DNA of 64,000 nucleotides from Hydrogenophaga sp. GTDB lineage: Bacteria > Pseudomonadota > Gammaproteobacteria > Burkholderiales > Burkholderiaceae_C. Both the position numbers and the translations under genes were made by a program. The notes below the pieces were generated by a model. It made no database searches, was not told the origin of the DNA, and worked only from the letters and a program-made list of their open reading frames with translations. The stretch covers positions 62,001-126,000 of the forward strand of contig NZ_JAHVAB010000078.1 of assembly GCF_019264445.1 (NCBI RefSeq), in the 5' to 3' direction. This document shows positions 53,709-59,618 of the stretch, in pieces. Within the stretch, counting starts at the first letter, position 1. Each line of letters opens with the position of its first letter.

Positions 53709-54428
53709 TCAGCCCACCACGAGGCGAATGCCCGGCAGCACCTGCTCGGACTCGGCCCTGCGCTCCAGCGCCATGCGCATGTTCATCTGCGCCACCTCGG
53801 TGTGCTCCATCGCCAGCGACTGGGCCCGCGCGCTTTCACCCCGGCGCAGCGCATCAAACAGCATGTGGTGTTGGCGGTGTGCATAGAGCATCCAGTCGCG
53901 GTCCATGGCCAGCGTGCCTTGCATCGGCAGCATGGCCGAGGCGGGCGCAAAGGGCAGCTTGTCGTTGAGCGCCACGGCGCGCTGCAACGCGCGGTTGCCG
54001 CAGGCGTCCAGGATGAGCGCGTGAAATCGGTCGTTCATCACCGAGTACGCGGCATAGCTCTCGATGGTCAGCGGGTTGTCGGCCAGCAGGCGGTCGCCCT
54101 CGTCCAGCACGGTCTGCAACTGACCCTGCAGCTGGCGCGACACACCATGCTCGGCCACCAGCCGTGCGGCCATGCCTTCCAGATGCCCACGCACCGAGAT
54201 GGCGTCGATCACTTCCTGCGCCGTGAACTGCCGCACCAGGTATTTGCCGGTCTCGTTCGCCTCGACCAGCCCCTCCTGCTCCAGCGTCACCAGCGCGGCC
54301 CGCACAGGTGTGCGCGAGGCGCCCAGGCGCTCGGCCAGCTGTTGCTCGGCCAGGCGCTGGCCGGGTTCGAACTGACCGCTGAGGATCAGGTCGCGCAGTT
54401 GCATCAAAACGGTGTCTTGCAAGCTCAT
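53709..54428 (-). CDS. GntR family (FCD) transcriptional regulator
   Basis: 239 residues from ATG 54428: winged helix (VLMQLRDLILSGQFEPGQRL, ASRTPVRAALVTLEQEGLV) and FCD domain (NDRFHALILDACGN, RQHHMLFDALRRGE). It is divergent from the Rieske oxygenase gene, and a GGTATACC palindrome lies between them. It is therefore the probable regulator of the oxygenase-GS-ferredoxin cluster (VanR/FadR-like logic, inferred). Confidence 0.88.
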   Translation of the reverse strand: MSLQDTVLMQLRDLILSGQFEPGQRLAEQQLAERLGASRTPVRAALVTLEQEGLVEANETGKYLVRQFTAQEVIDAISVRGHLEGMAARLVAEHGVSRQLQGQLQTVLDEGDRLLADNPLTIESYAAYSVMNDRFHALILDACGNRALQRAVALNDKLPFAPASAMLPMQGTLAMDRDWMLYAHRQHHMLFDALRRGESARAQSLAMEHTEVAQMNMRMALERRAESEQVLPGIRLVVG

Positions 54429-54454
54429 GGCGCAAACTGTACACGGAAATTGAA

Positions 54455-54470
54455 AAACGGTATACCATTT
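54455..54470. promoter_or_regulatory. GGTATACC operator candidate
   Basis: AAACGGTATACCATTT, a 16-bp palindrome with one mismatch, between divergent GntR and Rieske oxygenase genes. FCD-type GntR proteins often bind TGGTATACCA-like sites (family knowledge). Confidence 0.6.
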
Positions 54471-54514
54471 CGCCACACACCCACCACCCACCCCTTTTTC
54501 TGCCGGAGATGTCC

Positions 54515-55894
54515 ATGAAAGCCGAACTCAATCAACGCATCACCCAGGTCGGGCCGGGCACGCCCGGCGGCGAGTTGCTGCGCCGCTACTGGCAGCCGGT
54601 GGCCTTGCTCGATGAATTCAACCCCGCGCTGGTCCCCGAGATGGCGGTGCGCCCTGTCAAGGCGGTGCGCGTGCTGGGGCAGAACTTCGTGCTGTTCCGC
54701 AATGCCCAGGGCGAATTCGGCCTGCTCGACCGCGATTGCCCGCACCGGGGTGCCGACCTCGCCTTCGGCCGCAATGAAGGCGACGGCCTGCGGTGCCCGT
54801 TTCACGGCTGGAAGTTCGACACCACCGGCCAGTGCATCGAAACCCCCGCGGAACCTGCCGGCAGCAAGATGTGCAGCCGCATCCAGCAGCGCAGCTACCC
54901 GCTCGTGCAGCGCAGTGGCGTGCTGTTTGGGTGGTTTGGCCCCGAAGACCAGACGCCGCCGCCCTTCCCCGAACTCGACTGCTTCAAGGCGCCAGACACC
55001 CACACCTTCGCCTTCAAGGGCCTGTGGCATTGCAACTGGCTGCAGTCGCTGGAAGTGGGCATCGACCCCGCGCACGCGTCGTACCTGCACCGCTTTTTCA
55101 ACGATGGATCGCTCGAAGACAGCTACGGCAAACAGTTCCGCGGCGCCAGCGCAGGCGACGTGGGCGGCGAGCGCTGGCCCATGACGCGCGTGATGCGCGA
55201 ATTCGGCCAGCCCGAGATCAGCTTCGAGGCCAAGCCCTACGGCTTCCAGCTCACCGCGCTGCGCCCCATGACCGACGAACTCACCCACGTGCGCGTGACC
55301 AACGCGGTGTTCCCGCAGACCTTCGTCATTCCGCTGTCGGAGACCATGACGATCACGCAGATGCACGTGCCCGTGGACGACACACACAACTACTGGTACG
55401 CCTTCTTCACCAGCTTCACTGGCCCGGTTGACAAGGAAGCCATGCGCACGCCGCGCCTGCAGGCCGTCACCCTGCCCGACTACATCCCGAAGTCGGGCCG
55501 CCACAACAACTGGGGCTTCAACGCCGAAGAACAACAGAACCGCACCTACCTCGGCATGGGCGAGGACGACATCAACGTGCACGACCAGTGGGCCTGCGAA
55601 AGCATGGGCCCCATCCAGGACCGCACACGCGAGCACCTCGGCACCACCGACAAGGTGGTGATGGCCCACCGCCGCCTGCTGCTGCAAGCCATCGACTCGG
55701 TGGAGCAAGGCGGCACCGCCCCCGGCGTGGCCGACCCCGCCCTGCACGGCCAAATTGCCGGGCCGGACACGGTCGACGGCATCGCGCCCGCAAAAGATTG
55801 GGAGAACTGGTGGCAGGACGCTGTGCGCGACAAGCGCGAGGGCGCACCCTGGCACCACAAGGCCTCGGCCGAGGAAACGGCGGGGGCGAAATGA
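54515..55894 (+). CDS. Rieske non-heme iron aromatic-ring oxygenase, alpha subunit (phthalate-dioxygenase/VanA type)
   Basis: 459 residues from ATG 54515, six bases after GGAG; ATG 54509 abuts the GGAG and is less likely. Rieske cluster: C75-P-H77 and C94-P-F-H97 (CPHRGADL, CPFHGWKF). Mononuclear iron site: D184-P-A-H187-A-S-Y-L-H192. The C-terminal part (about 200-440) is long, as in the phthalate 4,5-dioxygenase branch, which is an alpha-only oligomer needing a separate reductase. It overlaps the GS-like gene by ATGA. The substrate is unknown; gamma-glutamylated aromatic amine is one hypothesis from context. Confidence 0.9.
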   Translation: MKAELNQRITQVGPGTPGGELLRRYWQPVALLDEFNPALVPEMAVRPVKAVRVLGQNFVLFRNAQGEFGLLDRDCPHRGADLAFGRNEGDGLRCPFHGWKFDTTGQCIETPAEPAGSKMCSRIQQRSYPLVQRSGVLFGWFGPEDQTPPPFPELDCFKAPDTHTFAFKGLWHCNWLQSLEVGIDPAHASYLHRFFNDGSLEDSYGKQFRGASAGDVGGERWPMTRVMREFGQPEISFEAKPYGFQLTALRPMTDELTHVRVTNAVFPQTFVIPLSETMTITQMHVPVDDTHNYWYAFFTSFTGPVDKEAMRTPRLQAVTLPDYIPKSGRHNNWGFNAEEQQNRTYLGMGEDDINVHDQWACESMGPIQDRTREHLGTTDKVVMAHRRLLLQAIDSVEQGGTAPGVADPALHGQIAGPDTVDGIAPAKDWENWWQDAVRDKREGAPWHHKASAEETAGAK

Positions 55895-57369
55895 CCTCAT
55901 TCGCCCAACGTTGCGGCCTGCAATCGCCCGAGCGCGACGCCGAGTGCCAGCGCGTGGCCGCGCTCATCGAGGCCAGCGGCCTGGAGCTGGTGCGCTTTGG
56001 CTGGTGCGACGCCCACGGCATGCTGCGCGGCAAGACGCTCACGGCCGCAGCGGCGGTGCGCGCCCTGCGCGACGGCGTGGGCATGGTGGGCACGCTGATG
56101 CTCAAGGACACCGCCGACCGCACGGCCTGGAAAGTGTTCGAGCCCGGTGGTGCCGCCGACCTGCCCGGCTTCGCGGGCGCCTCCAACCTCATGCTCATGC
56201 CCGACCCGGCCAGCTTCACCGTGCTGCCCTGGCTGGAGCGCACCGGCTGGCTGCGCTGTCAGCCCTGGTTTGCCGACGGCACGCCCGTGCCGCTGGACGC
56301 GCGCCGCATGCTGCAGACCGCACTCGGGCGGCTGGCCGAGGCAGGCTACGGCCTGAAGACCGGGCTCGAGGTGGAGTTTCACATCTACCGCATCACCGAC
56401 GCCCGCCCGCAGCTCGATCCCGAGCTGGCCGCCTGGCCGGGCCTGCCGCCCCGCGTGGAGATGATCCACCCCGGCTACAACCTGCAGGCCGAAGCCATGA
56501 GCGACCTGAGCGACGAGCCTCTGCGCATCGTGCAGCGCACGGCGCAAGCGCTGGGCTTGCCATTGCAATCGCTCGAAATCGAACTCGGCCCGAGCCAGGT
56601 GGAAGCCGTTTTCGACGCCACCGACGCGCTCACCGCCGCCGACCAGATGGTGCTGTTTCGCAACGGCGTGCGGCAGGCGCTGCGCCGCGCGGGCTACCAC
56701 GCGACCTTCATGTGCCGCCCGCCGTTCCCGAACATCATGTCCAGCGGCTGGCACCTGCACCAGTCGCTGGTCGACCAGAAGACCGGGCGCAATGCGTGTG
56801 TGCGCGAGGCGCCGGCCGCCGGCACCACACGCGCCGACGCCACGCACACGCTGTCTGAGGCGGGGGCGCACTGGCTTGCCGGCTTGCTGGCACACGCCCG
56901 CGGCATGACGGTGCTGTGCACCTCCACCATCAACGGCTTCGCCCGCTTTCGCCCCAACGCGCTTGCGCCGCAGTCCGCGCTGTGGGGACAGGACAACCGG
57001 GGCGCCATGCTGCGCGTGGTGGGCGCCGCAGGTGACAACGCCACCCGCATCGAAAACCGCGTGGGCGAACCGGCCGCCAACCCTTACCTCTACATGGCGG
57101 CGCAAATCCACGCCGGGCTGGATGGGCTGGCGCGCGCCACACTGCCACCACAGGCCAGCGAATCGCCCTACGCCGCCGAACACCAGAAACTGCCCTCCTC
57201 GCTGGGTGAAGGGCTGGACGCACTGCGCACAGACACTTCGCTCTGCGCCGCACTGGGCGAGGACTTCGTGCGCTACTTCTGCCGCATCAAGCAGAGCGAA
57301 ATCGACCGACACGCCCAGGCCGAAGACAAGACCGACTTCGAACGGCGCGAGTACTTCAGCCGCATCTGA
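55891..57369 (+). CDS. glutamine synthetase family protein (possible gamma-glutamyl-amine ligase)
   Basis: 492 residues, GS fold. N-domain FGWCDAHGMLRGKTL; metal Glu pair E160-V-E162 in GLEVEFHIY; SSGWHLHQSL with H288/H290 and the ATP site. Then GFARFRPNALAPQSALWGQD and IENRVGEPAANPYLYMAAQI. It is not canonical GlnA: shorter conserved loops, and the GlnA adenylylation Tyr segment is not evident. Relatives ligate glutamate to amines (PuuA, IpuC, aniline TdnQ/AtdA1; known). ATGA overlap with the Rieske gene and a 12-bp gap to the ferredoxin indicate one operon, so it probably activates an amine for the oxygenase. Confidence 0.85.
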   Translation: MTSFAQRCGLQSPERDAECQRVAALIEASGLELVRFGWCDAHGMLRGKTLTAAAAVRALRDGVGMVGTLMLKDTADRTAWKVFEPGGAADLPGFAGASNLMLMPDPASFTVLPWLERTGWLRCQPWFADGTPVPLDARRMLQTALGRLAEAGYGLKTGLEVEFHIYRITDARPQLDPELAAWPGLPPRVEMIHPGYNLQAEAMSDLSDEPLRIVQRTAQALGLPLQSLEIELGPSQVEAVFDATDALTAADQMVLFRNGVRQALRRAGYHATFMCRPPFPNIMSSGWHLHQSLVDQKTGRNACVREAPAAGTTRADATHTLSEAGAHWLAGLLAHARGMTVLCTSTINGFARFRPNALAPQSALWGQDNRGAMLRVVGAAGDNATRIENRVGEPAANPYLYMAAQIHAGLDGLARATLPPQASESPYAAEHQKLPSSLGEGLDALRTDTSLCAALGEDFVRYFCRIKQSEIDRHAQAEDKTDFERREYFSRI

Positions 57370-57381
57370 CCCCCCATCGAC

Positions 57382-57705
57382 ATGATCACGATTCGCTTCA
57401 TCCAGCCCGACGGCACGGTGCAGACCCTTGAGGCCGAGCCCGGGCAGAGCCTCATGAAAGCCGCGGTGGACGCCAACCTGCCCGGCATCGAAGCCGACTG
57501 CGGTGGCAGCCTCACCTGCGCCACCTGCCACGTCATGATCGGCGCGCCGTGGTCGGCCCTGCTGCCCGCCCCCGTGCCCGACGAAACCGACATGCTCGAC
57601 TTCGCTTCAAGCCCCGTGGTGCCTGAGAGTCGCCTGAGCTGCCAGGTGCGCCTGACGCCCGAACTGGACGGCATGGAGGTGCGCCTGCCCGCGTCGCAAC
57701 ACTGA
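57382..57705 (+). CDS. adrenodoxin/putidaredoxin-type [2Fe-2S] ferredoxin
   Basis: 107 residues. Cluster ligands C40, C46, C49 ([16 protein letters not shown]5CX2C) and C87 (SRLSCQVRL) follow the vertebrate-type ferredoxin pattern, with the acidic helix [11 protein letters not shown] before the last Cys. Such proteins carry electrons from a flavin reductase to P450s or Rieske oxygenases. It lies 12 bp after the GS-like gene and is the likely electron donor to the oxygenase. No ferredoxin reductase gene is in the cluster, so a housekeeping reductase must serve. Confidence 0.9.
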
Positions 57706-57763: not shown

Positions 57764-58468
57764 ATGCCCGACACCACCTACTCCTTTGCCCCGCCCGCCG
57801 TTGTCAGCGTCCCGGTTCTCGGACGGCCTGAGCGCTTCCCGGTGCACCGCATTTACTGCGTCGGCCGCAACTACGAAGAGCACGCCAAAGAAATGGGCTT
57901 CACCGGCCGTGAGCCGCCTTTCTTCTTTCTCAAACCCGCCGACGCGCTGGTGATCGCCAACAGTGGCCAGACCGCCACCATTCCCTACCCCAGCCTCACC
58001 AGCAACCTGCACCACGAAATCGAACTCGTGGTGGCCATCGGCACCGGCGGCAAAAACATCAAAGCCGCCGACGCCGCGAAACACATCTACGGCTACGCCG
58101 TGGGCCTGGACATGACGCGCCGCGACCTGCAGAACGACATGAAGAAACAGGGTCGGCCCTGGTGCATCGGCAAGGCCTACGACCACTCCGCACCCATCGG
58201 CCCCATCACGCTCGCCGCAGACGCGGGCGACATCCACCACGCGCCCATCTGGTTGCAGGTCAATGGCGCCGACCGCCAGCGCAGCACCGTGGCCAAGCTG
58301 ATCTGGAACGTGAGCGAGACCATCGAGCACCTGTCGGCCGCGTGGGAACTGCAGCCCGGTGATCTGATCTACACCGGCACGCCCGAAGGCGTGGCGGCAG
58401 TGGTGCAGGGAGACACCCTGCGCGGTGGCGTCGAGGGCCTCACCGAGATTTCCGTGCGCGTGGCCTGA
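57764..58468 (+). CDS. fumarylacetoacetate hydrolase family protein (fumarylpyruvate hydrolase-like)
   Basis: 234 residues of the FAH C-domain fold. Seen: the start of the domain [20 protein letters not shown], metal-binding acidic residues in [11 protein letters not shown] (Glu-x-Glu) and the [12 protein letters not shown] Asp, [12 protein letters not shown], and the family end [15 protein letters not shown]. This short form is typical of NagK fumarylpyruvate hydrolases and acylpyruvases. It follows the ferredoxin by 58 bp and may complete ring-cleavage product breakdown together with the zeta-GST isomerase 5 kb upstream. No ring-cleavage dioxygenase is adjacent. Confidence 0.87.
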
Positions 58469-58571: not shown

Positions 58572-59618
58572 ATGATCCAACGCAGAACCCTGCTCCAGTC
58601 TGGTGCAGCCGTGGCCTTGGGCGCACCCGCGCTCACCGGCTTCGCCCAGCAAAGCGTCACGCTCAAGTTCCACACGTTCATGGCGCCGCAGTCCAACGTG
58701 TACATCAACATGCACAAGGCCTGGATGGACAAGGTCGAGAAGGAATCGGGCGGCCGCATCAAGTTCGAGGGCTACCCCGCCATGACGCTGGGTGGCACGC
58801 CAGTGCAGCTGTTTGACCAGGCGCGGGACGGCGTGGTCGACATCGTGTGGACGTTGCCCGGCAACACGCCAGGCCGCTTCCCGCGCACCGAAGTGTTCGA
58901 GCTGCCTTTCATGATGAGCAACGCCGAAGCCACTTCCAAGGCCTTCTGGGAGTACATCACCACGATGGCCCCCGACGAGTACAAGGAAGTGCAGCCCATC
59001 GCCCTGCAAGTGCACGGCCCGGGCATGTTCCACATGCGCAGCAAGCAGGTCAAGACCGCTGAAGACCTGCGCGGCTCCAAGGTGCGCGGCCCCACCCGCC
59101 AGATCACCAAGATGCTCGGCTACCTCGGCGCCATCCCCGTGGGCATGCCGCTGCCGCAAATCCCCGACTCGCTCTCCAAGGGTGTGATCGATGGTTGCGT
59201 GATCCCCTGGGAAGTGGTGCCTTCGGTGAAGGTGCACGAACTCACCAAGTTCCACAGCGAATTCGACCCCGCTGGCGGCGCGCTCTACACCACCACATTC
59301 GTGATGGCCATGAACCGCAACAAGTACTCGTCGCTGCCGCCCGACCTCAAGGCGATCATCGACAAGAACTCCGGCATCGAAACCTCCGGCTGGCTGGGCA
59401 AGACGCAGCAGGCCGGCGACGCCGCCGGCCGCGACGCTGCGGTGAAGCAAGGCAACACCATCTACACGATTCCGTCTGCAGAGGCGCAGGAGTTCAAGCG
59501 CAAGGCGCGCCTGGTGGAAGTGGAGTGGGTGCAGGACATGGACAAGCGCGGCTTCGACGGCAAGAAGCTGCTGGAAACCGCCAAGGCACTGATCGTCAAG
59601 CACAGCAAGAAGGCGTAA
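58572..59618 (+). CDS. TRAP transporter solute-binding protein (DctP family)
   Basis: 348 residues. N-terminal signal IQRRTLLQSGAAVALGAPAL contains RR and fits a Tat or Sec leader cut near GFAQQ. DctP/TAXI-like motifs: TLKFHTFMAPQSNVYINMHK, QLFDQARDGVVDIVWTLPGN, FELPFMM, and KVRGPTRQITKMLGYLGA with the carboxylate-binding Arg. It binds an organic acid in the periplasm. The DctQ and DctM membrane partners are not in the window, so it is an orphan or works with distant ones. AGGAGA precedes the ATG. Its position suggests uptake of the oxygenase cluster's substrate. Confidence 0.9.
   Translation: MIQRRTLLQSGAAVALGAPALTGFAQQSVTLKFHTFMAPQSNVYINMHKAWMDKVEKESGGRIKFEGYPAMTLGGTPVQLFDQARDGVVDIVWTLPGNTPGRFPRTEVFELPFMMSNAEATSKAFWEYITTMAPDEYKEVQPIALQVHGPGMFHMRSKQVKTAEDLRGSKVRGPTRQITKMLGYLGAIPVGMPLPQIPDSLSKGVIDGCVIPWEVVPSVKVHELTKFHSEFDPAGGALYTTTFVMAMNRNKYSSLPPDLKAIIDKNSGIETSGWLGKTQQAGDAAGRDAAVKQGNTIYTIPSAEAQEFKRKARLVEVEWVQDMDKRGFDGKKLLETAKALIVKHSKKA

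Follow-up and report, generated by a model that had tools for sequence, protein, structure and literature searches.

The closest described system is the sad operon of Hydrogenophaga, which in the accessible text of PMC5632844 comprises the Rieske gene sadA (4-aminobenzenesulfonate dioxygenase), the glutamine synthetase (GS) gene sadB and a ferredoxin gene. The same text gives 4-aminobenzenesulfonate as the sad substrate in H. intermedia, the one species for which a 4-sulfocatechol lower pathway is reported there, and its authors expected the natural substrate to be a different one (PMC5632844). The aniline and 1-naphthylamine pathways (AtdA1, TdnQ, NpaA1) likewise pair a Rieske oxygenase (RO) with a GS-like ligase; these pathways further include an amidotransferase and a beta subunit, both seen by us in the loci L032-L034. 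Two other candidates were set aside. For the mab cluster of Comamonas QT12 (3-aminobenzoate), the main text of PMC9584955, as far as accessible, mentions neither Rieske, glutamine nor ferredoxin, so that no match was retained. SadABC of Microbacterium BR1 shares the gene names, yet the accessible part of PMC12589209 describes flavin monooxygenases acting on sulfonamides, which are unrelated.

The window (the whole stretch of 64,000 nucleotides that was analysed, from the 4.43 Mb genome G000 of a Hydrogenophaga sp.) contains the following features at the locus.

53709-54428, minus strand: GntR/FCD regulator, probable repressor (Pfam GntR and FCD)
54439-54466, no strand: candidate operator pair GTACAC-N14-GGTATACC (conserved pair and spacing)
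54509-55894, plus strand: alpha-only Rieske oxygenase, sadA-type, 461 aa (Pfam Rieske 66.4 bits, LigXa_C 94.3 bits)
55891-57369, plus strand: GS-like arylamine ligase, sadB-type, 492 aa (Gln-synt_C 233.3 bits)
57382-57705, plus strand: [2Fe-2S] ferredoxin, 107 aa (Fer2 42 bits)
57764-58468, plus strand: FAH (fumarylacetoacetate-hydrolase)-family protein, possibly co-transcribed (FAA_hydrolase)
58572-59618, plus strand: TRAP DctP-type binding protein, possibly linked (DctP)

The RO and GS genes share an ATGA overlap, 12 bp separate GS from the ferredoxin gene, and the GntR/FCD gene is divergent from all three; this packing and the protein families, both named in an earlier note on this DNA, are borne out by the ORFs and by Pfam. 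The span given in that note, 54455-57705, ends correctly with the ferredoxin coding sequence but begins in intergenic DNA, the first coding sequence starting at 54509. Its remark that beta-subunit, amidotransferase and reductase genes are lacking agrees with the ORFs picked at 40-64 kb of the window, among which we saw none; the linked amidotransferase and beta subunit that mark the aniline dioxygenase (atd/tdn) type are thus missing from the ORFs picked around the operon. What did not survive is the idea of an undescribed pathway, since the same gene set, a beta-less Rieske oxygenase, a GS-like ligase and a ferredoxin in one operon, has been published from the same genus as the sad operon (accessible part of PMC5632844). 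The sad operon of H. intermedia PBC (4-aminobenzenesulfonate 3,4-dioxygenase, glutamine synthetase, ferredoxin) shares both genus and gene set with the window. In H. intermedia MER 62 there is one RO-GS-ferredoxin operon (L055), orthologous to that of the window (RO 80%, GS 75%, ferredoxin 64% identity), and this strain's other matched RO genes (33-41%) do not share a contig with its other GS matches (at most 44%). Judged by orthology, the window operon is of the sad type, an assignment that runs via the sister strain MER 62 and not via the PBC proteins WP_009515254.1, WP_009515256.1 and WP_009515258.1. What is new here is a proposal for the natural substrate; the operon type itself is already described. 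The 44% GS of MER 62 forms a tight group with the ligase of a plasmid cluster that has aniline-type annotation and, by eye, adjoins a large oxygenase-like ORF and more ORFs resembling that cluster. Near-identical aniline-type clusters were noticed in MER 62 (L130, 7420-15001) and in G022 (L134), with ORFs resembling those in L033 and L034, two plasmid clusters flanked by IS66.

A tree of 28 rows, from which IpuC was absent, united the sad-type ligases, NpaA1, the TdnQ-type ligases and one Pseudooceanicola protein in a group of 22 rows (support 100/100), with E. coli PuuA, E. coli GlnA and four other GS proteins of G000 outside; the sad-type ligases alone formed a group of 17 rows (support 81/91). 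Long branches outside the 22-row group leave the deeper branching order unsure, and the TdnQ label of L034 was assigned in the present analysis from its annotated aniline-type neighbourhood. The phylogeny that the earlier note had proposed as a check therefore came out in favour of an amine ligase, grouping with the NpaA1/TdnQ-type enzymes and apart from PuuA and GlnA. The same placement, beside arylamine ligases whose function has been identified and away from GlnA, also characterizes the GoaS (glutamyl organic amide synthetase) class. The window ligase stays far below the NCBIfam equivalog cut-offs for PuuA (gamma-glutamylputrescine synthetase; 207.4 versus 650 bits), GlnA (185.3 versus 429.15 bits) and type III (197.8 versus 469.6 bits), and is 38% identical to NpaA1 and 43% to the TdnQ-type row. 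Its best PDB match, 8wwu, whose record title reads 'Glutamine synthetase', we take to be NpaA1. The GoaS amine-site glutamates, E232 and E234 in NpaA1, correspond to E229 and E231 in the window and are Glu in 90 of 90 aligned rows. At the position of Phe75 in the amine-entry loop of NpaA1 the window ligase has Lys72 (codon 56104-56106); this residue is Lys in 87 of the 90 rows and Phe in three, all of the aniline/naphthylamine type, the column being one of seven group-separating columns picked out post hoc.

Conservation was assessed on 80 named loci, the best 80 of 554 confirmed candidates, to which all locus counts below refer. RO lies directly before GS in 80 of these 80, which answers the earlier note's concern that homologous operons might lack the GS gene, and the ferredoxin gene lies directly after GS in 71. 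Of the 23 further genomes of the genus that were searched, 19 have an orthologue of the ligase with 70-93% identity, that of G019 being partial and lying at the end of a contig, and there was no match in G008, G009, G012 and G015; the best named match, among the matches listed, is a Hydrogenophaga MAG contig (L035, 92%). Because of these three counts (80/80, 71/80 and 19/23) the arrangement is not a matter of chance. With 19 of 23 genomes, the ligase is less universal than the statement in the accessible text of PMC5632844 that the operon is present in 'all currently reported Hydrogenophaga genomes'. Of the 23 plasmid records that contain an RO, 13 reach at least 43% identity in it, and all 13 also carry GS, within about 7 kb, while the other 10 (RO at most 36%) are absent among the 40 of 48 GS records listed. 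The sad-type RO branch and the GS-like ligase go together.

The ferredoxin, with four cysteines at residues 40, 46, 49 and 87, is not always linked to the RO-GS pair: in nine of the best 80 loci it was not detected next to GS, and eight of the nine have 7 kb of downstream sequence. A homologue of the plasmid-type reductase was found in one of the best 80 loci, as a weak match. In the cloning of the sad genes by Gan et al. in 2012, sadB was reportedly essential in E. coli and the reductase gene sadC unlinked. G000 has homologues of the plasmid reductase at 45%, 43% and, partially, 36%; none was assigned as sadC, the two best sitting, by eye, among other Rieske-type, P450-like and ferredoxin-reductase-like ORFs. 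These surroundings look, again by eye, like two parallel clusters (L131 and L132; G000:C70 and C34) with ORFs of the same three kinds.

The GntR/FCD gene is present in 53 of the 80 best loci. The 80-bp divergent region of the window carries GTACAC-N14-GGTATACC, a pair that occurs once in the window, and either this pair or GTACAC-N14-GGGATACC, with identical spacing, was found in 49 of the 53 intergenic regions compared (the window plus 52 named loci with a GntR-RO distance of at most 300 bp, one plasmid locus having been dropped). From this pattern, we infer that the GntR/FCD protein would act at the conserved candidate operator pair.

As to function, the oxygenase belongs to the phthalate branch. 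It has a Rieske motif from residue 77 and an iron-site (mononuclear-iron) motif from residue 186, the solved folds nearest to its predicted model are phthalate and isophthalate dioxygenases, and it is about 30% identical to the phthalate and isophthalate dioxygenases of Comamonas testosteroni KF1. We consider it rather likely that the substrate of the sad-type operon is an aromatic acid with a para-amino group, which would be glutamylated and then dioxygenated with loss of the nitrogen; 4-aminobenzoate, converted to protocatechuate, is the probable candidate. By homology to the NpaA1/AtdA1 class, the ligase would couple the gamma-carboxyl of glutamate with the amino group at the expense of ATP, with Lys72 possibly gripping the acid end of the substrate. 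The oxygenase, presumably receiving electrons from the ferredoxin of the operon and from a reductase whose gene lies elsewhere, would then dioxygenate carbons 3 and 4, as reported for 4-aminobenzenesulfonate, whereupon the ring would rearomatize and the nitrogen leave as glutamine. In this way 4-aminobenzenesulfonate would give 4-sulfocatechol, and 4-aminobenzoate, the probable natural substrate, would give protocatechuate, which could be passed to the protocatechuate 4,5-dioxygenase of the genome; its alpha and beta genes are present in G000, above curated cut-offs.

Three observations point towards 4-aminobenzoate: the distribution of Lys72, the resemblance of the oxygenase fold to phthalate dioxygenases, and the surroundings of the plasmid operons. 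Of the 11 plasmid records whose RO is at least 54% identical, 6 have PnbB (4-hydroxylaminobenzoate lyase) no more than about 11 kb away. As a general rule the PnbB linkage was not confirmed: in a set of 300 genomes of the order, PnbB occurs in 8, the RO in 19 and the two together in 2, against 0.5 expected (P 0.085), and then on separate contigs; PnbB is in none of 24 same-genus genomes, so that the linkage stands for the plasmid clusters only. The proposal as a whole is favoured by the published sad operon, the MER 62 orthology, the ligase clade, the RO-GS adjacency in all of the best 80 of 554 loci, the presence of GS in each of the 13 plasmid records whose RO is at least 43% identical, Lys in 87 of 90 rows, the dicarboxylate-dioxygenase-like fold, the plasmid PnbB and the protocatechuate 4,5-dioxygenase. 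Against it count the nine of these 80 loci with no ferredoxin detected, the weak genome-wide link to PnbB, the post hoc choice of Lys72, and the FAH genes and, in other genera, gentisate genes nearby. It also fits oddly with a 4-aminobenzoate-destroying pathway that H. intermedia PBC and S1 require p-aminobenzoate as a growth factor (accessible text of PMC5632844), unless the operon is expressed only at high substrate.

Downstream of the operon, the best 80 loci include an FAH gene in 57 cases and a TRAP DctP-type gene in 34. In the window the TRAP binding protein has no membrane subunits (of the expected two) alongside; in L060 and L075, transporter-like ORFs are retained at this place. In loci of Ramlibacter, Polaromonas and Caenimonas, the sad-type operon is followed directly by a 3-hydroxybenzoate/gentisate cluster (L062, 8949-13806). 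Such neighbours suggest a different acid (3-aminobenzoate, anthranilate or another amino-aromatic acid), handled with unchanged chemistry and followed by gentisate-type cleavage with FAH and MaiA-like lower enzymes. The counts among the best 80 speak for it: besides the 57 FAH genes, there is a MaiA-like gene in 42 loci, gentisate dioxygenase in 33 and 3-hydroxybenzoate 6-monooxygenase in 26. We nevertheless find it unlikely, for in Ramlibacter and Polaromonas the FAH gene is part of a 3-hydroxybenzoate/gentisate cluster that has a MarR-type gene of its own, on the opposite strand, and among the 80 loci this cluster was not found in those of Hydrogenophaga, which keep the FAH gene; moreover, the reported sad reaction yields an ortho-diol, and G000 has a gentisate-dioxygenase-like gene elsewhere with its own FAH-family neighbour. 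In Hydrogenophaga the FAH gene may be a remnant or else take part in the amine pathway.

The ligase clade shared with NpaA1 and the TdnQ-type enzymes would also suit neutral arylamines (aniline, chloroaniline) or alkylamines, the operon then being an aniline pathway variant that has no beta subunit. This is improbable to our mind, given that Lys replaces the Phe of the aniline and 1-naphthylamine ligases in the entry loop, that the oxygenase is of the phthalate branch, that the reported substrate is 4-aminobenzenesulfonate (accessible part of PMC5632844) and that the ligase stands apart from PuuA. The nine loci with no ferredoxin detected next to GS might even hint at a ligase, or an entire operon, that is defunct and kept by chance; with open frames, complete metal motifs, both amine-site glutamates in all 90 rows and RO-GS pairing in all of the best 80 loci, we regard this as highly improbable.

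Returning to 4-aminobenzoate, no natural substrate of the sad-type operon is named, beyond the suggestion in PMC5632844, in the accessible parts of the open-licence literature searched, and 4-aminobenzoate offers one concrete and cheaply testable candidate for what was left open in 2017 (PMC5632844, accessible text). A broader reading, on which we are nearly evenly divided with a slight leaning against it, is that the sad operon exists primarily not for pollutants but for 4-aminobenzoate or forms of it derived from folate, as a chromosomal pathway found widely in Comamonadaceae, 4-aminobenzenesulfonate use being a side activity; N-glutamylated 4-aminobenzoate, with Lys72 on the carboxylate, would give protocatechuate and glutamine, so that ring and nitrogen would both be recovered. 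If the 4-aminobenzoate proposal is right, a single loop residue would separate arylamine ligases for neutral amines from those for acidic ones, and genome sequences could better be used to predict what becomes of sulfanilate-type pollutants.

More distant relatives vary in their accessory genes. The plasmid clusters of Caballeronia, Cupriavidus, Polaromonas JS666 and Methylobacterium have, like the window, an alpha-only RO (57-60%), GS (46-50%), a ferredoxin and, in several, GntR; unlike in the window, a ferredoxin reductase gene is linked to these, in many cases along with genes for PnbB and nitroreductase. Within the genus, a second version of the operon (L136, G020:C55, 5171-16001; 46-47%) has a linked reductase and branched-chain-type ABC transporter ORFs and resembles the Polaromonas JS666 plasmid cluster. 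In Pseudooceanicola algae (L031) and Palleronia (L150) there is a distant variant with the GS-like and alpha-type Rieske genes apart and with flavodoxin and FAD oxidoreductase genes near.
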